Shown here piece after piece: positions 27,890 to 41,332 of a DNA stretch of 64,000 bases. The stretch's first letter is position 1, and every line of letters starts with the position of its first letter. Both the position numbers and the translations under genes were made by a program. The notes below the pieces were generated by a model that saw only the letters and a list, made by a program, of their open reading frames with translations, ran no database searches and was not told where the DNA came from. The DNA comes from Bradyrhizobium iriomotense (GTDB taxonomy: Bacteria; Pseudomonadota; Alphaproteobacteria; Rhizobiales; Xanthobacteraceae), in contig NZ_JAFCJZ010000027.1 in the NCBI RefSeq assembly GCF_018130765.1, forward strand, positions 1 to 64,000. Direction: 5' to 3'.

Positions 27890-28180
27890 TCAAGGACTCA
27901 TGAAGATCGGGTTGATCCCATGGGGATCGCCGGGCAGATCCAGGGATGGAAGCCGGTGGAGGTCGATTTCAAGCACAACCAGGAGCGTCGCCAACACGAC
28001 GACGATGTAGATGAGCAGCGGCGATGCGCCCTGCGTGTCGGGATCGCGATGTCGCGGCGGCTGCGCGAGAAAGTGCCACAACCGCGAGATGAATTGCAGA
28101 TAGGCTTTCGGGCGTAGCTGCATCTTCGGCCTCGGTCCATGAGGCGCCGCTAGCCAGACTGCGACCACGTTGATCGCCAT
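27890..28180 (-). CDS. Small membrane-anchored hypothetical protein
   Basis: A 96-aa frame with one clear transmembrane helix (PLLIYIVVVLATLLVVLEIDL, about residues 52-72), a basic N-terminal half (FISRLWHFLAQPPRHRDP) and a short C-terminal tail. An internal start MQLRPKAYLQF would give 77 aa. The helix with flanking charges looks genuine, and plus-strand alternatives over the same bases have no recognisable features. Function unknown. It diverges from the WD40-cytochrome gene. Confidence 0.5.
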   Translation of the reverse strand: MAINVVAVWLAAPHGPRPKMQLRPKAYLQFISRLWHFLAQPPRHRDPDTQGASPLLIYIVVVLATLLVVLEIDLHRLPSLDLPGDPHGINPIFMSP

Positions 28181-28406
28181 TCAAGGCGCCGCTTGTCGCA
28201 CCTGGAACCGGATACGAGCTGCCCTCGTTGAGCTGGATCAAGGGGCTGCGCTTTTGCCCGGAGGCCAGGACTGCGCGACGCGCCACGGCGGATCGCCGCA
28301 GAACGATCGCCGGCGGCAATCGCCCGGCGTCACGGGACCGAATTTGGCCGTGGTGCAAAGCCGGGCAGAGTGGCACGGTGGGGGCTTCGAGTGTCTCCGA
28401 CGGCCA

Positions 28407-29699
28407 ATGGATTTGACCTTGCGCCTTGCCACCGTCCTTCTGACGGCATCGCTGCTGCTCCCGCTGCGGCCCACGCAGGCGCAACTGGCGGGGCACGGCG
28501 GGCCTGTCCGCGCGATCGCCGTTTCGGTCGATGGCAGGACGGTCTTGTCGGGCAGCTTCGACACGGCCGCGATCCGATGGTCGCTGGCCACCGAGTCCGC
28601 CGAGCAGGTCCTTCGCTTCCATTCGGGTGCGGTGAACGCGGCCGCCTTTCTCGGAGACGGACGAATGGCGACGGCCGGTGCGGACGGCCAGATTGCGATC
28701 TGGAAGGCGGGCCAGCCGCAACCGGACCAGGTCGTCGAAGCTCATACGGGACCCATTGTCGGGCTCGCCGTGTCTCCCGATGCATCGAAGCTCGCATCAG
28801 CCTCGTGGGACCACACCGTGCGGATCTTGTCGCTGTCCGACGGCGGGACGCGCGTGCTGCATGGCCACTCGCAAGGTGTGAACGGCGTGGCCTTTGCTCC
28901 GGACGGACAATCGCTGGTGAGCGTCGGCTACGACCTGACGGTGCGGATCTGGCCCCTGCCGGGCGGCAGCCCCGAGACCATCGTGATGCCGGCACCGCTG
29001 AACGTCGTCGCCATTTCGCCCGATGGCGGAATCGTCACCGGCGCGGCAGACGGCAAGCTGCGCATGATGACCGCCGATGGCAAGGAAAACGGCGAGGTCA
29101 TGGTCGGCGCCAGTCCGATCGTGGCGCTTGCGATTGCGCAAGACGGCACCTTGCTGGCCACGGGGGCCATCGACGGCACTGTCGCGATCGTCGATCGCAA
29201 GGCGAGGAGCGTGTTGCGCACGCTCGCCGGGCCTGGCGCGCCGGTCTGGTCGGTCGCGTTCTTGCCCGATGGCGCGACGCTGCTGACTGGCGGTGCTGAC
29301 GGCAGGATCAGGCGCTGGAACGCGCTGACCGGCGCGGCGATCGGGTCGAATGTGCTGGGCACGCCGGCGGATCCGCTTGCGGCCTATGCCGGCGATCACG
29401 GCGCCGAAATCTTCAGGGCTTGCGTGGCCTGCCATACATTGTCGGAAACCGAGGTCCAGCGTGCCGGGCCGACGCTTGCGGGACTGTTCGGCCGGAAGAT
29501 CGCCTCGCTGCCGGGGTATCGCTTCTCCGACGCGCTCAAGGCCATGGATATCGTCTGGACGCCGGAGACCGTCTCAAGACTGTTCGAGATCGGGCCGAAC
29601 GCCTACACGCCCGGCACCAAGATGCCGGAGCAGCACATCGGCTCGGCCGAGGATCGCCGCGCGCTCACCGACTTTCTGGCGCGCGCGACGTCGAAATAG
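28407..29699 (+). CDS. WD40 beta-propeller fused to C-terminal cytochrome c
   Basis: A 430-aa exported protein. A signal peptide (MDLTLRLATVLLTASLLLPLRPTQA) is followed by about seven WD40-like blades (for example LAGHGGPVRAIAVSVDGRTVLSG, then HTGPIVGLAVSPDASKLASAS in shorter pieces), covering residues about 27-315. A class I cytochrome c domain comes last, with heme motif CVACH and a probable Met ligand in GTKMPEQH. It should be a periplasmic electron carrier with a protein-binding propeller. Its position beside the formate dehydrogenase locus suggests it could take electrons from it or from another periplasmic dehydrogenase. ATG 28407 is the start that gives the signal peptide; the frame opens at 28170. 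Confidence 0.85.
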   Translation: MDLTLRLATVLLTASLLLPLRPTQAQLAGHGGPVRAIAVSVDGRTVLSGSFDTAAIRWSLATESAEQVLRFHSGAVNAAAFLGDGRMATAGADGQIAIWKAGQPQPDQVVEAHTGPIVGLAVSPDASKLASASWDHTVRILSLSDGGTRVLHGHSQGVNGVAFAPDGQSLVSVGYDLTVRIWPLPGGSPETIVMPAPLNVVAISPDGGIVTGAADGKLRMMTADGKENGEVMVGASPIVALAIAQDGTLLATGAIDGTVAIVDRKARSVLRTLAGPGAPVWSVAFLPDGATLLTGGADGRIRRWNALTGAAIGSNVLGTPADPLAAYAGDHGAEIFRACVACHTLSETEVQRAGPTLAGLFGRKIASLPGYRFSDALKAMDIVWTPETVSRLFEIGPNAYTPGTKMPEQHIGSAEDRRALTDFLARATSK

Positions 29700-32031: not shown

Positions 32032-32134
32032 GTCAATCCCTCCGCCAGTGCGGCGCCGACTTACGGACTCGCGCCATTGTTGCACCTCGTATAGATATTC
32101 ACTATCGGGAAGAAAAGGAAAGTGGAGGACGGCC
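32032..32134. promoter_or_regulatory. Divergent promoter region of the formate dehydrogenase accessory genes
   Basis: This 103-base space separates the outward-facing polyferredoxin and ligase-like genes if the CTG starts are right. Each side ends in a Shine-Dalgarno sequence (GGAGGG on minus at 32043-32038; GGAGG on plus at 32124-32128). An AT-richer core (TATAGATATTCACTAT, about 32090-32105) is the likely promoter. I could not match a sigma-54 or other specific motif. Confidence 0.45.
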
Positions 32135-32890
32135 CTGCGGTCGACCCCAACCAGCCACGTTTCCCTGGCGGAGCCGATCCAGCTGCCGCCGCCATTCACG
32201 CTCGTCCGCTTGCGTGAGAGCAAAGACGCCTTTGCCGACGCTTGCCGCATTGCACCCAAGAGCGGCGCCGGCACGCTGGTGTATGTCGGGCGGTTCGATC
32301 TCGCCGAATTCGCCGTGGTGCTCGAGCCGGGCGAACCCTTGCGCACCGCGCGGCGCGCCTTCTACGCCGGCATGGTCGCGCTCACGGACGCTCTTCGCGC
32401 CTACGCACCGCCGAACAAGACCGTCACGATCGGCTGGCCCGATGCCGTCGAGATCGATGGCGGGCTGGTCGGCGGTGGGCGGATGGGATGGCCGTCGTCT
32501 GTGCGCGAGGCCGCGCGGCCCGCCTGGCTGGTGTTTGGCGCCATGATCCGGACGGTCGCAATGGCCGACCAGGGGCCCGGCATTCATCCGCTCGCGTCCG
32601 CACTGGATGAGGAGGGGTTTGGCGAAGCCGGAGCCGCAGAGGTGACCGAGAGTTTTGCGCGGCACCTGATGCGGGTGTTCGATAGTTGGCAGGTCGACGG
32701 CTTTGACAGCGTCGCACGCGATTATCTGAGCCGGGTTCCCCGTGAGCGGCGGACCGTGCTGAGGATCGACGAGAGCGGCGATCTCCTCACGCGCCGTGTC
32801 GGCACCGATAGGGTCGAGCGGAGCGAGCTCGTCAAGGCGCTCGCCAAGCCATCCTGGCTCGATCCGAAACTCGGAGGACCGCGACTGTGA
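32135..32890 (+). CDS. Biotin/lipoate-ligase-family protein of the FDH locus
   Basis: About 251 aa. The body resembles the biotin/lipoate A/B protein ligase fold (LPPPFTLVRLRESKDAFADAC; AGTLVYVGRFDLAEFAVVLEP; VTIGWPDAVEIDGGLVGGGRMGW) found in DUF4444-type proteins at formate dehydrogenase loci. Whether it ligates a cofactor or has lost that activity is unknown. No ATG, GTG or TTG lies in frame between an improbable ATG at 31943 (inside the opposite gene) and the conserved body. CTG 32135, 6 nt after GGAGG, is my proposed start. It overlaps the next gene by 4 nt (GTGA). Confidence 0.72.
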   Translation: MRSTPTSHVSLAEPIQLPPPFTLVRLRESKDAFADACRIAPKSGAGTLVYVGRFDLAEFAVVLEPGEPLRTARRAFYAGMVALTDALRAYAPPNKTVTIGWPDAVEIDGGLVGGGRMGWPSSVREAARPAWLVFGAMIRTVAMADQGPGIHPLASALDEEGFGEAGAAEVTESFARHLMRVFDSWQVDGFDSVARDYLSRVPRERRTVLRIDESGDLLTRRVGTDRVERSELVKALAKPSWLDPKLGGPRL

Positions 32891-33426
32891 AACTGCTCCG
32901 CACCATCGCGCTCGATCCCTCCGACACCTTCGTGTTCGATGCGGCGGCGGAGCCCGGCGAATGGGCCGTCTCAGGCGCGTTCCGCTTCTGCGACCAGGAT
33001 CCCGCGACGCTGAGCGGCAAGGCGCGCGCGGCGTTTCGCAGCGGCTTCCTCGGGGTGCAATCCTGGGGCTGGTCGACGCTGGCGCAGATTGTGCCGGCAA
33101 CGGAGAGCGATTGCCGGGCGCTGATCGAGCTCCTTGCCGGCCAACTCATCGATCGTTTCGGCGCGCCGGATCCTGCAACCGCGCGAACGGCCGCCGAAGA
33201 GGAGGTCGCCTTTGTGCAGTCGCTCTGCACGCATCCGATCAGTTCGCTCATCGCCGTCCACCGCTCGGTGAGCGACGGCGAAGTCCGCGAGTCGTTCCGC
33301 AGGCTGCAGCTGCGGCAAGGGCAGGGGCACAGCAAGGCGTTCTCGTTCATGGAGGTCGAGGAGGACGTCGAACCCGACGGCAATGTCAGACTTGCCGATA
33401 TGAGCCAGGAGCGACAGCACCGATGA
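32887..33426 (+). CDS. DUF6505-like formate dehydrogenase accessory protein
   Basis: A 179-aa cytoplasmic protein starting at GTG 32887 (GTGA overlap with the preceding gene). It reads MKLLRTIALDPSDTFVFD at the start, with WAVSGAFRFCDQDPATL and GFLGVQSWGWSTL segments. It matches what I recall of the DUF6505 family, always near DUF3305/3306 and FDH. No catalytic motif is evident. The stop overlaps the next start (ATGA), so it is translationally coupled in both directions. Confidence 0.7.
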   Translation: MKLLRTIALDPSDTFVFDAAAEPGEWAVSGAFRFCDQDPATLSGKARAAFRSGFLGVQSWGWSTLAQIVPATESDCRALIELLAGQLIDRFGAPDPATARTAAEEEVAFVQSLCTHPISSLIAVHRSVSDGEVRESFRRLQLRQGQGHSKAFSFMEVEEDVEPDGNVRLADMSQERQHR

Positions 33427-34430
33427 ACGATTTCTGGATCGCGTGCGGCCACCATCTGCTCGATCGCAATGAGAGCGGCGGGCTTTGCGTCACCGACGAG
33501 TTCCTGAAGGCCTATTTTGCTCGTCCCGAGCTGATGCCGCCGGACGAGGCGTGCCCGGTCGAGCGGCGGCTGCACCGCGCGCTGCTCGCCGCTCCCCGCC
33601 GACCGGTCGGCGCTGATGAGGTCGCAGCGATTGTCGATGCGGATGCCCGGGAGAACTGGCGGTTCGTGCTTGCCTTTCGCGATCTCCTGGTGCGGCATCC
33701 GACGCTCGAGGCCGCCTATCTCGCAACCGTCCGCTCGCGGACCAACGATCTGCCGCCGCTGTTCGTCAATCAGCTCGTGCATGTGATCCTGCGCAATGCG
33801 CTCGATGGCTGCGATGATCCCTTCGTGCTGCGCGCAGCCGAACTGTTCTTCCGCCCGCAGCGCATCCTGCCGCATGAGCAGGCCTTGCTGCTCGGAGATG
33901 AGGAGGTCGTCGGTGGGCAGAGCCCGACCCCGGTGCTGTCGCTGATGTCGATGCTGGGGGCCGTGACCGATGCCCAGCTCGACGTCCTGAGCGAGGACAA
34001 TGCCGACGACTATTGGCACCGAAGCGACGATTTCGACATGGCCTTCGACCTCACCGCAGGGGGCCGCGGGCCGAAGGCGTTGGCGCAGGCGATGGCGCGC
34101 TGGATCTCCCATCTGCTTGGGATCGACGTCGGCATCGAGCCGCTGCGCGAATTGCGTGATGTGCGGCTCACCTGGTATGTCGGGCTCGACGCCGATGCGA
34201 CCAGGCTGGGCGACCGTCTCTGGCACGGGGAGCAACTCGATGACCGCAGCGCCGGCCGTGTGCTTTCATTGTTCCGCCTGACGTTTGCGGACAAGAGTGC
34301 GGCCGCGGACGAGATGCAGGGTGAGCCGATCTATCTCATTCTGTCGATGAATTCCGATCAGAAGCTCCGGATGAAGCCGCAGAATTTGCTGACGGGGTTG
34401 CCGATCAAACATCTGGAGATGGTGACATGA
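33423..34430 (+). CDS. DUF6352-like formate dehydrogenase accessory protein
   Basis: A 335-aa soluble protein beginning MNDFWIACGHHLLDRNESGG and LCVTDEFLKAYFARPELMPP. The C-terminal part RNDLPPLF-type and YLILSMNSDQKLRMKPQNLL segments are characteristic of the DUF6352 genes that accompany this FDH locus. Function unknown; context suggests cofactor insertion or enzyme maturation. ATGA overlaps at both ends. Confidence 0.7.
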   Translation: MNDFWIACGHHLLDRNESGGLCVTDEFLKAYFARPELMPPDEACPVERRLHRALLAAPRRPVGADEVAAIVDADARENWRFVLAFRDLLVRHPTLEAAYLATVRSRTNDLPPLFVNQLVHVILRNALDGCDDPFVLRAAELFFRPQRILPHEQALLLGDEEVVGGQSPTPVLSLMSMLGAVTDAQLDVLSEDNADDYWHRSDDFDMAFDLTAGGRGPKALAQAMARWISHLLGIDVGIEPLRELRDVRLTWYVGLDADATRLGDRLWHGEQLDDRSAGRVLSLFRLTFADKSAAADEMQGEPIYLILSMNSDQKLRMKPQNLLTGLPIKHLEMVT

Positions 34431-34942
34431 GCCCGGCTGCGCTGCCGCTCGTGCGCATTCCCGTCGGCATCGTGGTCGAGCGCCACAAGGCGGAATCGCC
34501 CTGGGCCGACTTTGTCTGGCGCGCTGTCGCCGTGCTGCCGGACGAGCCGGACACAAGGTCCTGGACGGTGCTCCGTCAAGAGGGCGGCGAGACACTGTTT
34601 TATGCCGGCAGCGCTATGGTCGATCTCTACAGTTCCGAGACGGCGCGCTATCGCGATAATCTCGTTTCGGGCAGTCCGAGCATCTGGACAGTGTTGTCGC
34701 CTGCGGAAGGCGCCTGGCCCTATTCGGTGGTTGCCGCCACCGCCGATCCTGCGGAAGGCGAAGCGTTCACGGAGGCCGGTGCCAATCTGGTCGAGGCCGT
34801 TCCCATGCCCGACGTGCTGCGCGAGCAGATTGAAAGCTTCGTTGCCGAGCACCACGTCGAACGGGAGTTCTTCAAACGCAAGCGGCGGCAGGCCGATCCG
34901 GAGGCGCTGGCGCGCCGGCAGCATGAAGGCGGACACGAATGA
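34427..34942 (+). CDS. DUF3305 protein
   Basis: A 171-aa protein with the DUF3305 pattern: IPVGIVVERHKAESPWADFVW, then AVLPDEPDTRSWTVL and ETARYRDNLVSGSPSIWTVL, ending in a basic tail (REFFKRKRRQADPEALARR). DUF3305 genes are almost always paired with DUF3306 next to formate dehydrogenase, suggesting a maturation role. ATGA overlap with the previous gene and with the DUF3306 gene. Confidence 0.85.
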   Translation: MSPAALPLVRIPVGIVVERHKAESPWADFVWRAVAVLPDEPDTRSWTVLRQEGGETLFYAGSAMVDLYSSETARYRDNLVSGSPSIWTVLSPAEGAWPYSVVAATADPAEGEAFTEAGANLVEAVPMPDVLREQIESFVAEHHVEREFFKRKRRQADPEALARRQHEGGHE

Positions 34943-35565
34943 GCGAGGATAAGTTCCTGGCGCGCTGGTCCCGGCTCAAGCAGGAGGCAAAGACGAACGC
35001 CCCGCAGCCGGATCCGGCAATGCGCGACGACCTGCAGCCGGCACCGCCGCCCGCCACGAAGGACGACGAAGTGGCGTTCGACCTCTCGAGCCTGCCTTCG
35101 ATCGACTCGATTACGTCAGCGACCGATATCCAGGCGTTCCTGCGAAAAGGGATACCGCAGGAGCTGACACGTGCGGCGCTTCGTCGCGCCTGGAGCGCCG
35201 ATCCCGCCATACGCGACTTCGTAGGACTTGCCGAAAACGCATGGGACTTCAACGATCCCTCCGCAATGCCGGGTTTTGGGCCGCTGGATTGTTCGGAAGC
35301 AGAATTGGCTGCGTTCGTGGACAGGATCATCGGTGGCATCAGCAAGTCAGCCGAGACGCTGTCCGAGACCCCGGTTGAAGTCGCGGATTCTTCGCGGGAA
35401 TTGCGCCAGGTCGAGGGACTAGGTGACGAGATCGTCGCCGAAGAAGAAGTGCGACCCGAGCTAGCACCTGCTCCTGCTGCAACGCAACGAACGGTCGCCG
35501 AAAGCTCTGGAAGCGAACAGCTGTCGATTCCTCGGCGCACGCATGGCGGCGCGCTGCCCCGCTAG
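34939..35565 (+). CDS. DUF3306 protein
   Basis: A 208-aa protein with the DUF3306 signature: FLARWSRLKQEAK at the N-terminus, then LSSLPSIDSITSATDIQAFL, and LRRAWSADPAIRDFVGLAEN, with NDPSAMPGFGPL near residue 112. The C-terminal 80 residues are acidic and low in complexity. It is the last gene of the overlapping accessory run; a structured segment follows immediately. Confidence 0.85.
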   Translation: MSEDKFLARWSRLKQEAKTNAPQPDPAMRDDLQPAPPPATKDDEVAFDLSSLPSIDSITSATDIQAFLRKGIPQELTRAALRRAWSADPAIRDFVGLAENAWDFNDPSAMPGFGPLDCSEAELAAFVDRIIGGISKSAETLSETPVEVADSSRELRQVEGLGDEIVAEEEVRPELAPAPAATQRTVAESSGSEQLSIPRRTHGGALPR

Positions 35566-35626
35566 GGCCCCCGACGAAAGACCATAGCCTCAGACTATGG
35601 GGAGGTGATTGACCCTCTGTCGGGCC
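35566..35626 (+). ncRNA. Candidate structured RNA (three-way junction) upstream of the TorD gene
   Basis: Starting right after the DUF3306 stop, an outer stem (CCCGAC 35570-35575 with GTCGGG 35619-35624) encloses two hairpins. One is CCATAG-CCTCAGA-CTATGG (35582-35600). The other is GGAGGT-GATTG-ACCCTC (about 35601-35617), in which pairing includes a small bulge. It lies about 70 nt before the GTG start of the TorD-like gene, so it could be a riboswitch-like leader, an attenuator or an RNA processing site. I recognise no known class. It lacks a trailing U-run, so a simple terminator is unlikely. Confidence 0.4.
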
Positions 35627-35697
35627 AGGACTACGCTTCGTCTAGTGCTTTGTAGCAAAAGCAAAATCAGCACCTGGGACTTGGATGGGAGGTCCAC

Positions 35698-36477
35698 GTG
35701 CGTGATGACGGCCTTGAACGAGCCATTGACGCCGCTGGCGGCGTCGCAGGACTTGCGCGCAAAATCGGCATTAGCCAGCCCTCCGTTTCGAACTGGAACA
35801 AGGTGCCCGCACAGCGGGTGATTGCGGTCGAAGCGGCCACCGGCGTATCGCGCAATGACTTGCGGCCTGATCTGTACGGCGAGGCGCTTCTGTCCGAAGT
35901 TCCGATTGAACCCGTCGATGCGGCGCGCGCGCAGGAATATCTGTTGCTGGCGACGCTCTTGTCGGCAGCACCGTCAGGAAGGCTGCTCGATCAACTGGCC
36001 GCATTGACTGGTGATGCGACGCCGCTCGGGCGCGCGCATGCCGAGCTGGCCGCAGCCGCCGCCAATGCAGTCCCAGCGAAGGTCGAGCGCGAATATTTCG
36101 ATCTGTTCACAGGTCTCGGCCGCGGCGAGCTCCTGCCCTATGCCTCCTACTACCTGACGGGATTTCTCAACGAGCGGCCGCTGTCGCGCCTGCGCGCCGA
36201 TCTCGCCGTGTCAGGGATCGAGCGCGCCGCGAACAATCCGGAGCCGGAAGATCACGCCGCCATCCTGTGCGAGATCATGGCGGGCTTCGCGGGAGGCCGC
36301 TTCCCGGCGTCGTTCGAGGCGCAGCGCGCATTCTTTGACAAACACCTCGGGCCCTGGATAGGCCGGCTGTTCGCCGACATCGAGCGCGCGGAGAGCGCCA
36401 ACTTCTATCGTGCAGTCGGCGCGCTCGGTCGCGCCTTTATCGACATCGAGACGGAAGCATTCACGTTCGCCAACTGA
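35698..36477 (+). CDS. TorD-family maturation chaperone with N-terminal YdaS/Cro-like HTH
   Basis: A 259-aa protein starting at GTG 35698, 5 nt after GGAGG. Residues about 5-57 look like a YdaS/Cro-type helix-turn-helix (LERAIDAAGGVAGLARKIGI, SQPSVSNWNKVPAQRVIAVE, then ATGVSRNDLRPDLYG). Residues about 75-250 are a TorD/DmsD-type chaperone: AQEYLLLATLLSAAP, YFDLFTGLGRGELLPYASYY, and EDHAAILCEIMAGF. TorD-family chaperones bind the Tat leader of molybdoenzymes and help cofactor insertion, here presumably for FdhA. The HTH suggests the chaperone may also bind DNA. It lies 30 nt before the Tat-target peptide gene. Confidence 0.85.
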   Translation: MRDDGLERAIDAAGGVAGLARKIGISQPSVSNWNKVPAQRVIAVEAATGVSRNDLRPDLYGEALLSEVPIEPVDAARAQEYLLLATLLSAAPSGRLLDQLAALTGDATPLGRAHAELAAAAANAVPAKVEREYFDLFTGLGRGELLPYASYYLTGFLNERPLSRLRADLAVSGIERAANNPEPEDHAAILCEIMAGFAGGRFPASFEAQRAFFDKHLGPWIGRLFADIERAESANFYRAVGALGRAFIDIETEAFTFAN

Positions 36478-36506: not shown

Positions 36507-36725
36507 ATGAGTGAAGACAGGAAAACCACAGTCGGGCGGCGCGATTTCCTGCGCAAGGTCGGCGTCGGCGCGGCGGGCGCCGGCGCGACGCTCGCGACAC
36601 CGCTGGTCGGATCCGCTCAGGCGGATAGCGAAACCAGCGATGAAAAGCGCAAGGCGCGCTACAAGGAAACCGATCACGTCAAGACCTTCTATCGCGTCAA
36701 TCGTTATCCGGCCAAGGGAGGTTGA
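36507..36725 (+). CDS. Formate dehydrogenase region Tat-target peptide (FdhX-like)
   Basis: A 72-aa protein with a twin-arginine signal (VGRRDFLRKVGVGAAGAGAT, cleavage near AQA) and a short mature part with DHVKTFYRVNRYPAKGG. This is the 'formate dehydrogenase region Tat target' family, always just upstream of fdhA; it may help assembly or membrane attachment. SD AGGAGAG precedes ATG 36507. Confidence 0.9.
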   Translation: MSEDRKTTVGRRDFLRKVGVGAAGAGATLATPLVGSAQADSETSDEKRKARYKETDHVKTFYRVNRYPAKGG

Positions 36726-36727
36726 CC

Positions 36728-39670
36728 GTGCTGATCAAGCGAACAAACCCGCGTTCCCTGCGCCATGGTTCCGTTGCCGAATCCCTTGCGGGGCAAGCCG
36801 GCGGTCTCGACCGCCGCAGCTTCTTGCGCAAATCCGGTCTTGCCGGTGGCGCGCTCGCCGCGCTCGGCACGCTGCCGGTTGGCGGCGTACGCAAGGCGGA
36901 AGCGGCGGTGGCCGGTCCGCTCACCGCAGGCGCGACCGTCCGCAAGAGCATCTGCACGCATTGCTCGGTTGGGTGCACGGTCACGGCCGAGGTCCTGAAC
37001 GGGGTATGGATCGGTCAGGAGCCGAGCTGGGATTCGCCGATCAATCGCGGTTCGCATTGCGCGAAGGGCGCCTCCGTGCGTGAGCTCGTGCATAGCGAGC
37101 GGCGGTTGCGCTATCCGATGAAACTGGTGGGTGGCCAGTGGACCCGCGTCTCCTGGGATACCGCGATCAACGAGATTGGAGACAAGCTTCAGGCTGTGCG
37201 CGAGAAGTCGGGCCCTGACTCCGTTTATTGGCTCGGCTCGGCCAAGATGACCAATGAAGGCGCGTACCTGTTCCGCAAGCTCGGTGCATTCTGGGGAACC
37301 AACAACACCGATCACCAGGCCCGCATCTGCCATTCGACCACCGTCACCGGCGTCGCCAACACCTGGGGCTACGGCGCGATGACCAACAGCTACAATGACA
37401 TCCGCAATGCGAAGACGCAGATGATCCTGGGCGGCAATCCGGCAGAGGCACATCCGGTCTCGCTGCAGCACCTGCTCGAGGGGAAGGAGCTGAAAAAGGC
37501 CAACTTCATCGTCATCGACCCGCGCCTGACGCGCACCGCCGCGCACGCGACCGAATATGTGCGGATGCGGCCGGGCACCGACATCCCCATACTCTACGGC
37601 ATGATGTGGCACATCCTCCAGAACGGCTGGGAGGACAAGGAGTTCATCCGGCAGCGGGTCTACGGTTTTGACGACCTCAAGAAGGAGGTTGAGAAGTGGA
37701 ATCCGGAAGAAGTCGAGCGTGTCACCGGCATTCCCGGCGAGCAGCTCAAGCGCGTCGCCAAGATGTTTGCCACCGAGAAGCCGGCGACGCTGATCTGGGC
37801 GATGGGGCAGACCCAGAAGACCGTCGGCACCGCCAACGTGCGCGCCAGCTGCATCCTGCTGCTGATGACCGGCAATGTCGGCGGAGAGGGCAAGGGAGCC
37901 AACATCTTCCGTGGCCACGACAACGTGCAGGGCGCGACCGACGTCGGGCTCGATATCGTCACGCTGCCGTTCTACTACGGCCTCGCCGAAGGCGCCTGGA
38001 AGCATTGGTCGCGGGTTTGGGAAGTCGACTATGACTTCCTGAAGTCGCGCTTCGACTCCAAGCAGATCATGGAAACGCCGGGCATCCCGCTGACCCGCTG
38101 GTTCGAAGCGGCGACGCTGCCGAAGGACCAGGTCGCGCAGAAGGACAATGTCAGGGCGGTGTTCGTGCAGGGACACGCCTCCAACAGCATCACCCGTATC
38201 CCTGAATCCCTCAATGGCCTGAAGGCGCTGGAACTGCTCGTCATTGCCGACCCGCATCCGACGACCTGGGCCTCGCTGGCAGTCGAAGCGGGGCGCAAGG
38301 ATGGCGTCTACATTCTGCCGGTCGCCACGCAATTCGAGTGCAAGGGCTCGCGCGTCGCCTCCAACCGCTCGCTGCAATGGGGCGAGCAGATCGTGAAGCC
38401 GGTCTTCGAGTCGAAGGATGATCTCGAAATCATCTATCTGATGGCGAAGAAGCTCGGCGTCGCCGACCAGATGTTCAAGAAGATCAAGGTCGAGAACAAT
38501 CTTCCTGAAGCGGAGGATGTCCTGCGCGAGATGAACCGCGGCAGCTGGTCGACCGGCTATTGCGGGCAATCGCCTGAGCGCCTCAAGGCGCACATGAAGA
38601 ACCAGGCCAAGTTCGACATGCTGACGATGCGCGCGCCGAAGGACGACCCCGAGGTCGGCGGCGACTATTACGGCCTGCCCTGGCCGTGCTGGGGATCACC
38701 GGAGGTCAAGCATCCCGGCACGCCGCTGCTCTACAATACCAATCTGCACGTGATGGACGGCGGCGGCACGTTCCGCCCGCGGTTCGGCATCGAGCGCGAG
38801 GAGAAGCTGCCGGACGGCACGACGCGCAAGGTGAGCCTGCTCGCGGATGGCTCGTACTCGCTGGGGTCGGGTATCCAGGACGGCTATCCGGAATTTACGC
38901 TCGCGAGCTTGAAGAAGCTCGGCTGGGACACCGAACTCACCGAAGCGGAAATGGCCGTGATCAACAAGGTCAACCCGGCCACTCCGGACGCGGTGTCGTG
39001 GGCGCTCGACCTGTCGGGCGGCATCCAGCGCGTCGCGCTGGCGCATGGCTGCGTTCCCTATGGTAACGGCAAGGCCCGTATGCATGCCTTCGGCTTGCCC
39101 GATCCCATCCCGGTTCACCGCGAGCCGATCTACACGCCGCGCGTCGATCTCGTCGCCAAATACCCGACGCTGCCCGACGCCAAGCAGTTCCGGATGCCCA
39201 ATATCGGCTTCTCCGTGCAGAAGGCTGCGGTGGAGAAGGGAATTGCAAAACAGTTCCCGCTCATCCTGTCGTCCGGCCGCCTGGTCGAATATGAGGGTGG
39301 CGGCGAGGAGACCCGGACCAACCCGTGGCTCGCCGAATTGCAGCAGGACATGTTCATCGAGATCAACCCTGCCGACGCCGCCGAGCGCGGCGTCAAGGAC
39401 GGCGGCTGGGTCTGGGTTACGGGAGCCGAGAACAATTCCCGGGCAAGGATGAAGGCGCTCGTCACCGAGCGGGTCGGCAAGGGCGTTGCCTGGATGCCGT
39501 TCCACTTCGGTGGCTGGCTTGGAGGCAAGGACCTTCGCGGCAACTACCCGAAGGGCACCGACCCGATCGTGCTCGGCGAAAGCGCGAACACGATCACCAC
39601 CTACGGCTACGATCCCGCGACGAACATGCAGGAAGCCAAGGTCACTCTCTGCCAGATCGCGGCGGCATAA
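36728..39670 (+). CDS. fdhA: Formate dehydrogenase alpha subunit, molybdopterin/Fe-S, Tat-exported
   Basis: A 980-aa catalytic subunit that oxidises formate to CO2 on the periplasmic side. Tat leader LDRRSFLRKSGLAGGALAAL (about 28-48) is followed by the [4Fe-4S] motif CTHCSVGC...HCAKGA. The Mo/W ligand is Cys, not selenocysteine (ARICHSTTVTG). Then come the NTQMILGGNPAEAHP-like and FIVIDPRLTRTA molybdopterin segments and the C-terminal IEINPADAAERGVKDG. GTG 36728 has GGGAGG 6 nt upstream and is preferred. TTG 36722, overlapping the previous stop, is also in frame. It forms an operon with fdhB and fdhC. Confidence 0.95.
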   Translation: MLIKRTNPRSLRHGSVAESLAGQAGGLDRRSFLRKSGLAGGALAALGTLPVGGVRKAEAAVAGPLTAGATVRKSICTHCSVGCTVTAEVLNGVWIGQEPSWDSPINRGSHCAKGASVRELVHSERRLRYPMKLVGGQWTRVSWDTAINEIGDKLQAVREKSGPDSVYWLGSAKMTNEGAYLFRKLGAFWGTNNTDHQARICHSTTVTGVANTWGYGAMTNSYNDIRNAKTQMILGGNPAEAHPVSLQHLLEGKELKKANFIVIDPRLTRTAAHATEYVRMRPGTDIPILYGMMWHILQNGWEDKEFIRQRVYGFDDLKKEVEKWNPEEVERVTGIPGEQLKRVAKMFATEKPATLIWAMGQTQKTVGTANVRASCILLLMTGNVGGEGKGANIFRGHDNVQGATDVGLDIVTLPFYYGLAEGAWKHWSRVWEVDYDFLKSRFDSKQIMETPGIPLTRWFEAATLPKDQVAQKDNVRAVFVQGHASNSITRIPESLNGLKALELLVIADPHPTTWASLAVEAGRKDGVYILPVATQFECKGSRVASNRSLQWGEQIVKPVFESKDDLEIIYLMAKKLGVADQMFKKIKVENNLPEAEDVLREMNRGSWSTGYCGQSPERLKAHMKNQAKFDMLTMRAPKDDPEVGGDYYGLPWPCWGSPEVKHPGTPLLYNTNLHVMDGGGTFRPRFGIEREEKLPDGTTRKVSLLADGSYSLGSGIQDGYPEFTLASLKKLGWDTELTEAEMAVINKVNPATPDAVSWALDLSGGIQRVALAHGCVPYGNGKARMHAFGLPDPIPVHREPIYTPRVDLVAKYPTLPDAKQFRMPNIGFSVQKAAVEKGIAKQFPLILSSGRLVEYEGGGEETRTNPWLAELQQDMFIEINPADAAERGVKDGGWVWVTGAENNSRARMKALVTERVGKGVAWMPFHFGGWLGGKDLRGNYPKGTDPIVLGESANTITTYGYDPATNMQEAKVTLCQIAAA

Positions 39671-39682
39671 GGAGCAACGACG

Positions 39683-40279
39683 ATGGCACGTATGAAGTTT
39701 CTCTGCGACGCCGACCGTTGCATCGAGTGCAACGCCTGCGTCACGGCCTGCAAGAACGAGCACGAAGTCCCCTGGGGCATCAACCGCCGCAGGGTCGTCA
39801 CCATCGCCGACGGCAAGCCGGGCGAACGATCGGTCTCGATGGCCTGCATGCACTGCACGGATGCGCCGTGCGCGGCAGTGTGTCCGGTGAACTGCTTCTA
39901 TACCACCGCCGATGGCGTGGTCCTGCACTCCAAGGATCTCTGCATCGGCTGCGGCTATTGCTTCTACGCTTGCCCGTTTGGCGCGCCGCAATATCCGAAG
40001 GTCGGCAATTTCGGCTCGCGCGGAAAAATGGACAAATGCACCTATTGCGCCGGCGGCCCCGAGGCCGACGGCAGCAAGGAGGAATACGAAAAATACGGTG
40101 CGAACCGCCTGGCCGAGGGCAAGCTGCCGCTGTGTGCCGAGATGTGCTCGACCAAGTCGCTGCTCGCCGGCGACGGCGAGATCATCGCCCAGATCTATAA
40201 GGAGCGCGTGTTGAAGCGCGGCTATGGCTCAGGCGCATGGGGCTGGAAGACCGCCTATCGCGAAACAATCGAGTCCTGA
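39683..40279 (+). CDS. fdhB: Formate dehydrogenase beta subunit, four [4Fe-4S]
   Basis: A 198-aa ferredoxin-type subunit that passes electrons from FdhA to the cytochrome b subunit. Four cysteine groups are visible: CDADRCIECNACVTAC, CMHCTDAPCAAVCPVNC, CIGCGYCFYACPFGAP, and CTYCAGG...CAEMC. It has no own leader and should be co-exported with FdhA. It lies 12 nt after fdhA with GGAG upstream. Confidence 0.93.
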   Translation: MARMKFLCDADRCIECNACVTACKNEHEVPWGINRRRVVTIADGKPGERSVSMACMHCTDAPCAAVCPVNCFYTTADGVVLHSKDLCIGCGYCFYACPFGAPQYPKVGNFGSRGKMDKCTYCAGGPEADGSKEEYEKYGANRLAEGKLPLCAEMCSTKSLLAGDGEIIAQIYKERVLKRGYGSGAWGWKTAYRETIES

Positions 40280-40318: not shown

Positions 40319-41332
40319 ATGTCCTCATTTGCAAGGTTCATTCGACCAGCCATCGGCGCGTGGGCGTTGCTTCTGTTGGTCATGGCAGCGCCAATGCCGT
40401 CGCCGGCCCAGCAGATCAATCCGACGGCGAGCTCGGTCAATGAGCAGAAGTTGCTACAGGAGATGGATCGGATCCAGGGACGCGTCAGCATCCCCGACCA
40501 GCGCTCCGGCGTGCTGATGCAACCTGCCGGCCGCGAATGGCGTGAATTCCGCAACGTCGCGCTGCGGTGGATCGGCGGCGTTGCTGTGCTCGGCATGCTG
40601 GTGGTGCTGGTGATCTTCTATCTGACACGCGGCATGGTCCGCCTCGAAAGCGGGCGATCCGGCCGCACCATCGTGCGGTTCAACACCTTCGAGCGTTTCG
40701 TGCACTGGATGACCGCGACCTGCTTCATCATCCTGGCGGTCTCGGGATTGAACATCACGTTCGGGCGCCCGCTGCTGCTTCCGCTGATCGGATTTGACGC
40801 CTTCTCGGAATGGTCGCAATGGGCGAAATTCGCCCACAACTACCTGAGCTTTCCCTTCACGATCGGCGTCGTGCTGATCTTTTTGATGTGGGTCGGCGGC
40901 AATATCCCGAGCAAGGTGGATCTGGAGTGGATCAAGCGCGGAGGCGGCCTGTTCGGTCACGATCATCCGCCGGCTCGCCGTTTCAACGCGGGTCAAAAGG
41001 GGATCTACTGGATCGTTGTGATCGGCGGTGGCCTCGTGGCGGCAACGGGCTACGTGCTGATGTTCCCGTTCTACCTGACGGGGATCGAGGGCATGCAGAT
41101 GGCCCAGATCGTTCACTCCATCGTGGCCGTGCTGTTCATCGCCGCGATGCTCGCTCACATCTACATCGGCACGATCGGGATGGAGGGGGCTTTCGAGGCG
41201 ATGGGATCAGGCGAGGTGGATGTCAACTGGGCGCGCGAGCACCATAGTCTGTGGCTCGACCAGGAAATGGCACGGAGCGGCCCGAACGATTCTCGGCCGC
41301 AGCCTCGCCATGCTGCGTCCGCAGCCGAATAG
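40319..41332 (+). CDS. fdhC: Formate dehydrogenase gamma subunit, cytochrome b556
   Basis: A 337-aa membrane protein with an N-terminal signal-like helix (WALLLLVMAAPMPSPA) followed by about five hydrophobic helices. Heme-ligand histidines appear in ERFVHWMTATCFIILAVSG, KFAHNYLSFPF, and IVHSIVAVLFIAAMLAHIYIG. It should transfer electrons from FdhB to quinone. The periplasmic N-terminal extension (QQINPTASSVNEQKLLQEMD) is typical of this FDH type. It is 39 nt after fdhB and ends the operon. Confidence 0.92.
   Translation: MSSFARFIRPAIGAWALLLLVMAAPMPSPAQQINPTASSVNEQKLLQEMDRIQGRVSIPDQRSGVLMQPAGREWREFRNVALRWIGGVAVLGMLVVLVIFYLTRGMVRLESGRSGRTIVRFNTFERFVHWMTATCFIILAVSGLNITFGRPLLLPLIGFDAFSEWSQWAKFAHNYLSFPFTIGVVLIFLMWVGGNIPSKVDLEWIKRGGGLFGHDHPPARRFNAGQKGIYWIVVIGGGLVAATGYVLMFPFYLTGIEGMQMAQIVHSIVAVLFIAAMLAHIYIGTIGMEGAFEAMGSGEVDVNWAREHHSLWLDQEMARSGPNDSRPQPRHAASAAE

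Follow-up and report, generated by a model that had tools for sequence, protein, structure and literature searches.

A chaperone gene in which the N-terminal part of the protein resembles a phage repressor raises the question of whether the chaperone also regulates transcription and, if it does, which genes are its targets. Such a gene lies in the window analysed here, a stretch of 64,000 nucleotides from Bradyrhizobium iriomotense. A first-pass annotation, made from the sequence alone, had described it as a TorD-type chaperone with a YdaS/Cro-like helix-turn-helix (HTH) domain and proposed a feedback on the neighbouring formate dehydrogenase (FDH) operon. As the phage-type HTH goes together with a matching palindrome before its own gene in nearly all relatives, the HTH-TorD protein probably controls its operon. 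The reading favoured here is that of a bifunctional chaperone and transcription factor, which would regulate itself on its own operon via this palindrome (probability about 0.72). A chaperone with its own HTH and a named candidate operator beside its client makes the matching of molybdenum or tungsten enzyme synthesis to cofactor supply and Tat export directly testable, and the natural variants, in which helix and operator seemingly change together, are useful for studying the specificity of Cro-type HTH domains. The features of the locus are collected in Table 1.

Table 1. Features around the HTH-TorD gene, in coordinates of the window.
Feature	Position	Strand	Basis or remark
Second ATAG-N7-CTAT, at the divergent promoter	32091..32105	+	weak candidate site
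DUF6505, DUF6352, DUF3305 and DUF3306 accessory genes, upstream in the same cluster	32887..35565	+	Pfam
Possible second promoter P1: CCGACG, 16 bp, GACTAT; right half of the candidate operator = -10	35571..35598	+	weak, inferred from other lineages
Candidate operator palindrome ATAGCCTCAGACTAT, ATAG-N7-CTAT, before the fused gene	35584..35598	+	
Likely promoter P2: TTGACC (35609-35614), 17 bp, TACGCT (35632-35637)	35609..35637	+	consensus, conservation across relatives
HTH-TorD fusion gene	35698..36477	+	259 aa, GTG start
YdaS/Cro-type HTH, residues 6-63	35713..35886	+	PF15943, 3bd1 fold match, conservation
TorD/NarJ-type chaperone domain, residues about 72-257	35911..36468	+	PF02613, TorD/DmsD alignments, YcdY/DmsD folds
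Formate dehydrogenase region TAT target (TIGR02811), sharing the unit of HTH-TorD and downstream of it	36507..36725	+	
FdhA-like catalytic subunit, presumed client	36722..39670	+	twin-arginine leader RRSFLRK
FDH3 beta subunit (NF038355)	39683..40279	+	339.7 bits vs 240
Likely membrane cytochrome b (gamma) subunit	40319..41332	+	ORF, family judged by eye

The gene is preceded by GGGAGGT just 5' of its start codon. Its proposed division into an HTH within the first 57 or so residues and a TorD remainder was borne out, with the HTH ending at about residue 60 and followed by a variable linker. In Pfam, residues 6-63 matched YdaS_toxin (PF15943; E 3.8e-16; 59.1 bits, cut-off 30) and P22_Cro (PF14549) was matched at cut-off level (30.3 against 30.2), while residues 106-225 matched Nitrate_red_del, the TorD/NarJ family (PF02613; E 8e-31, 107.3 bits against 22.2). 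A profile built from 42 fused proteins and compared with solved structures aligned residues 6-64 with Cro of prophage Xfaso 1 (3bd1, E 2.6e-10) and residues 72-249 with TorD (1n1c, E 8.5e-9). An AlphaFold2 model reached a mean pLDDT of 80.5, with poor modelling of residues 139-159. Structure prediction of residues 1-60, suggested earlier as a check, gave ten-residue blocks at 85-95, and residues 3-61 of the model matched 3bd1 with a Z score of 9.4 (rmsd 1.6, 59 residues). Among the matches listed, the TorD part of the model resembled YcdY (9m26, Z 17.5 over 172 residues, for model residues 73-259), DmsD (3efp, Z 15.4) and NarJ (Z 13.6). The model thereby predicts the HTH fold of Cro in the N-terminal part and the all-helical TorD/DmsD fold in the remainder. 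The recognition helix spans about Q27-W33. An EPEDH motif (residues 182-186) in the TorD part corresponds in alignments to EPEDH in DmsD and EPADH in TorD, and 44 positions of this part are conserved in fused and unfused proteins alike. These residues fit a leader-binding TorD domain, and the simplest reading would be that the chaperone role was retained and DNA binding gained on top.

The fusion is not a chance event, since full-length fused homologues were found in many genomes, and sequence comparison indicates that it is old. A scan of 146 genomes of the genus gave 105 with a match at E up to 1e-20, and the 93 of these with a full-length fusion were all examined; one fused match from a different scan (G1131) was left out of the locus set. 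In the order, 100 of 199 genomes were matched at E up to 0.001; among the matched places were 16 full-length fusions, the one of the window included, and about 60 TorD proteins without HTH. The scan of the class (385 genomes, 57 matched) added seven genomes with the fusion outside the order. In the phylum (398 genomes, 64 matched), no match outside the class spanned both domains; TorD matches there started at residue 53 or later, and one match (G1009) covered the HTH alone. Altogether, the scans yielded 190 distinct upstream regions of fused genes, which, as far as sampled, are all alphaproteobacterial. Relatives with named records (best 80 of 120) include Bradyrhizobium, Afipia, Nitrobacter, Pseudolabrys and Pseudorhodoplanes, and plasmid relatives carry the NCBI name 'molecular chaperone TorD family protein'. 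Most loci belong to a subfamily 1, whose fused proteins are 50-100% identical to that of the window; the genome of the window itself has one match to the HTH-TorD protein at E up to 0.001. In another genome, a related HTH (query residues 1-91) lies inside an open frame of 588 aa (G354:C86:35768-36046), perhaps another HTH fusion.

Across 179 distinct fused proteins, the majority residue had a mean share of 0.793 in the HTH (residues 2-60), 0.411 in the linker (61-73) and 0.736 in the TorD part (74-255), which puts the conservation of the HTH slightly above that of the chaperone domain. At each of Q27, P28, S31 and W33, 177 or 178 of the 179 agree, and R40 is almost invariant too; the HTH is thus conserved in homologues, as had been asked of it. 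Loss of the recognition helix in orthologues had been named as the outcome that would speak against DNA binding; with helix residues almost invariant over the 179 proteins, it is confined to single copies such as L130, L315, L092 and L105. These shares, and the link of the palindromes described below to the fusion, argue against the notion that the HTH is a relic, or a module for dimerisation or partner binding only, for which DNA binding would be irrelevant. About 60 TorD loci of the order scan serve without an HTH, as that notion would allow, and it is nevertheless rated very improbable.

A genetic link to the presumed client enzyme, as seen in the TorD/NarJ family, is present. The HTH-TorD gene is flanked by the DUF3306 gene and the formate_TAT gene, followed by the FdhA-like gene, for which the best NCBIfam match was TIGR01591 Fdh-alpha (462.8 bits, below the cut-off of 666), and the FDH3 beta gene. 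Where enough DNA was available, fdhA lay downstream in all 136 loci of subfamily 1, all 11 of a divergent subfamily 2 and 55 of 75 unfused loci, and DUF3306 lay upstream in 137/137, 9/11 and 47/76, respectively. In second FDH loci of Bradyrhizobium genomes (L153-L156), DUF3306 seemingly runs in frame into TorD with no stop, by sequence without HTH and without palindrome. In the window, the open reading frame at 28170-29699 reads by eye like a WD40-repeat protein with a terminal cytochrome c domain.

The segment just upstream of the gene (35566-35697) had been named as a natural target, and it indeed contains a palindrome present in nearly all fused relatives. The copy of the window reads CCATAG-N7-CTATGG and lies in the gap 5' of the HTH-TorD gene. 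ATAG-N7-CTAT was found in 101 of 104 distinct fused upstream regions of a first set and, at a later but still early stage, in 147 of 155 (three of the 155 being subfamily 2) against 0 of 76 unfused ones; a search within 500 nt found the exact form in none of 53 unfused torD loci. Of 179 distinct fused subfamily-1 regions, a set that includes the families of three divergent genomes, added later, 177 have the wider form ATAR-N7-YTAT in the 300 nt before the gene, compared with one of 76 unfused regions (L226) and none of the 11 of subfamily 2. In 200 single-base shuffles of the 179 upstream regions, the mean was 0.81 and the maximum 4. For unfused genes, whose start codons were left unassigned, the 300 nt were counted back from where the TorD match starts and hence extend less far beyond the gene. 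Upstream regions with identical last 150 nt were counted once in the 147/155, the 177/179 and the helix/site counts, whereas the counts for the 32.1-kb site (of 74), the 53 unfused loci and the 297 other upstream regions (below) refer to all loci, repeats included; L191 (not TorD) and L158 (106 nt upstream) were left out. On a tree, fused and unfused sets are clustered, with six label changes, and the 177 of 179 are therefore to be read as a footprint within a few lineages and not as 177 independent events. Two loci (L195 and L307) carry two operator palindromes each before the fused gene.

The palindrome also varies, and its form tends to follow the recognition helix. Proteins with Ser at residue 29 have ATAG/CTAT in 160 of 164 cases and those with Thr in 6 of 6, whereas with Ala ATAA/TTAT is found in 6 of 8; ATAA-N7-TTAT together with Ala29 was seen in L009 and L222, and the rest came from a targeted search of their families. 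Residue 29 of lambda Cro sits close to the corresponding base. Among the matches listed (best 10 of 63), no printed Cro helix/operator code was found in the literature. Subfamily 2 (L197-L199 and L316-L323) has the helix KQANVWHW or SQGHVWHW and a different palindrome, ACAAA-N4-TTTGT, exact in 9 of 11 loci and with one mismatch in the other 2, and absent from 297 other upstream regions; the same two Pfam families were found in L198 and L316. In L130, helix and palindrome are both degraded. There are exceptions to the rule: L294 combines Ala29 with ATAG/CTAT, the sites of L290 (Ala29), L289 and L251 (both Ser29) are mixed, L058 has an intact HTH and a broken palindrome, and L092 (W33G) and L105 (S31P) retain the site despite an altered helix. 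L315 keeps ATAA/TTAT with Ser29 within a damaged HTH, which speaks against simple co-decay. On a tree of 61 rows, residue 29 changes five times and the site three times, and of three independent pairs on well-supported branches, one shows a site difference, in the same direction, and two show none; with so few independent pairs, a formal test of helix/site covariation has no power. That the site tends to change with the recognition helix is thus suggestive, with about three site switches as its basis. The palindrome is very probably bound by the HTH.

The palindrome has the shape T-N11-A, known from LysR-type sites, and it could belong to another regulator, with the HTH of the TorD protein having another target or none. 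In the own genome, the second-best site (ATAGCTTCAGCCTAT, L149:1501-1515, contig C23:85065; score 21.5) lies just before a LysR-looking open reading frame and a divergent SDR-looking one, both judged by eye, and is perhaps the T-N11-A box of this neighbouring regulator. However, a search of the DNA flanking 80 fused loci and of 14 kb of the window, with the L149 LysR-like protein as the one query (E up to 1e-4), detected no relative, and a LysR-type neighbour was rejected as owner of the site. The near confinement of the palindrome to HTH-fused genes (177/179 against 1/76), its tendency to change with the helix and its loss in L130 along with a decayed HTH also point away from a foreign regulator, which is considered improbable.

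Alternatively, the repeat might act in RNA, as a hairpin in a transcript reading through from DUF3306 that serves as attenuator or processing site instead of an operator. The window copy is able to pair (CCATAG...CTATGG) and is located between two genes of one cluster. Over the 177 sites, pairing exceeds expectation at the second (0.51 against 0.36) and eighth flanking pair (0.44 against 0.27) and at the first central pair (0.49 against 0.38), but not clearly at the first flanking pair (0.42 against 0.39) or the two central pairs further in (0.53 against 0.47; 0.33 against 0.38); flanking pairs three to seven are at or near expectation. Moreover, the half-sites are fixed apart from the switch from G-C to A-T, no Rfam family matched at gathering score, and site and promoter overlap in some of the family. 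As excess pairing outside the half-sites occurs at some positions only and Rfam gave no match, the RNA element was rejected, its probability being put at a few in a hundred.

If the HTH binds the palindrome, the sign of regulation would depend on where the site lies relative to the promoter. In Bradyrhizobium and relatives, the site stands just before TTGAC (103 of 177 loci, referred to as P2-type). For 100 distinct upstream regions with a best-scoring promoter of score at least 5, the distance from the palindrome centre to the -35 box is 15-18 in 80, 7 in 11 (8 of them with TTGAC) and elsewhere in 9; the two main distances are about one helical turn apart and put the centres near -52 and -42. 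In Bradyrhizobium, where the site abuts the -35 box with its centre 15-18 bp before it, this position fits an activator as well as a repressor. Lambda CI recruits RNA polymerase to PRM from OR2, and the HTH-TorD protein, bound beside the -35 box, might likewise recruit it to P2, possibly blocking the upstream P1, so that the chaperone would boost its own operon; the helical spacing agrees with this. Against it, P2 has a near-consensus -35 box, TTGACC, and elsewhere in the family, in the two sets of loci described next, the site often lies where an activator of this kind is not expected. Within subfamily 1, 20 of the 43 clusters without TTGAC after the site have a TTG-N16-18 type promoter whose -10 box is overlapped by the right half of the site, some of these 20 being related to each other; 500 shuffles of the left flank gave a mean of 1.6 and a maximum of 8, none reaching 20. 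A cruder control is less sharp than the shuffles, with TTG starting between -13 and -4 relative to the site in 21 of 43 clusters and in 8, 13, 18, 7, 10 and 1 of 43 for six other ten-base windows. In 10 of the 11 subfamily-2 loci, a TTG box and a TA box, 16-17 bp apart, enclose the palindrome, a count that stands without shuffle control and by a criterion chosen after viewing the sequences. A site over the -10 box or spacer is, by its layout, that of a repressor. The P1-type layout occurs with a better -35 box in other lineages, and 73 of 103 P2-type loci have CGAC at position -12 relative to the site, perhaps as a relic of this other promoter. No transcription-start map of an HTH-TorD/fdh operon was found in the open-licence literature. 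Autoactivation is on this basis rated unlikely; over the family, the layouts make repression the likely sign, and at the promoter of the window itself repression is slightly favoured.

As a further target, the divergent promoter at 32.0-32.1 kb had been put forward. ATAG-N7-CTAT does occur there (32091-32105), and two copies in 64 kb compare with 0.04 expected from shuffling. The second copy, however, scores 6.0 against 22.8, near the bottom of 14 sites in the genome, its left half belongs to a likely -10 box, and of 74 loci with sufficient upstream sequence, 10 have it. It was for these reasons rejected as a real second target and appears chance-like or clade-specific. Nor does a wider regulon show in the own genome, where the 8-base pattern has 14 matches and a control pattern 17; this candidate was dropped as well.

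The HTH-TorD protein as autoregulator would then work as follows. The Cro-type HTH, presumably dimeric, would bind ATAG-N7-CTAT before its own gene and thereby regulate the unit torD - TAT - fdhA - fdhB, which encodes both chaperone and client, and autorepression is expected in most lineages. The ability to bind FdhA, by its Tat leader or in its apo form, has most likely been retained in the TorD part, and this binding probably alters operator occupancy, so that transcription would respond to the balance between free chaperone and enzyme still to be matured. For the gating of the operator by apo-FdhA in particular, the chances are judged even. A bolder version, held tentatively and at somewhat less than even odds, unites chaperone, client sensor and transcription factor in one polypeptide: apo-FdhA at the TorD domain would change the grip of the HTH, FDH synthesis would be set by cofactor supply and export capacity, and the circuit would have been re-targeted several times in Alphaproteobacteria (ATAG, ATAA, ACAAA) in step with the helix.

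With the redox enzyme maturation proteins TorD, DmsD and NarJ, the HTH-TorD protein shares the domain, the fold and the EP(E/A)DH motif. TorD-type proteins of fdh operons have been described as the TorDfdh clade (PMC4464133) and as FdhM of Campylobacter jejuni, a TorD homologue needed for a formate dehydrogenase (PMC10609526), and they resemble it in their place beside a Tat-exported catalytic subunit. They differ in that no DNA-binding domain is described for them in the parts of these sources available: the main text of the 2015 family survey makes no mention of DNA-binding, helix-turn, fused, fusion or transcription (PMC4464133), and the accessible text of the 2023 review contains no wording on a DNA-binding domain, autoregulation or repression, and transcription once (PMC10609526). 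The HTH has sequence and fold in common with YdaS, P22 Cro and Xfaso 1 Cro. YdaS of E. coli O157:H7 gives footprints over two promoters, its own at higher concentration, and its reading as toxin or antitoxin is disputed; its exact binding sequence is described there as still to be determined (PMC8630535), and the likeness drawn here covers sequence and fold. Whereas YdaS and Cro are free-standing prophage regulators, the HTH of HTH-TorD forms one chain with an enzyme chaperone and is encoded in a metabolic operon. In titles and abstract starts of the open-licence literature, no description of a TorD-family chaperone with a DNA-binding domain was found.

Trigger enzymes and chaperone-coupled autoregulators such as PutA, BirA, HrcA-GroE and HspR-DnaK report the occupancy of a metabolic or chaperone activity to the transcription of their own genes. 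The likeness to the HTH-TorD protein lies in this coupling, which on the side of HTH-TorD is proposed. The parts are known, and their combination with matched candidate operators appears to be new: compared with these systems, HTH-TorD would join chaperone and regulator in one chain, with a single client encoded next door.
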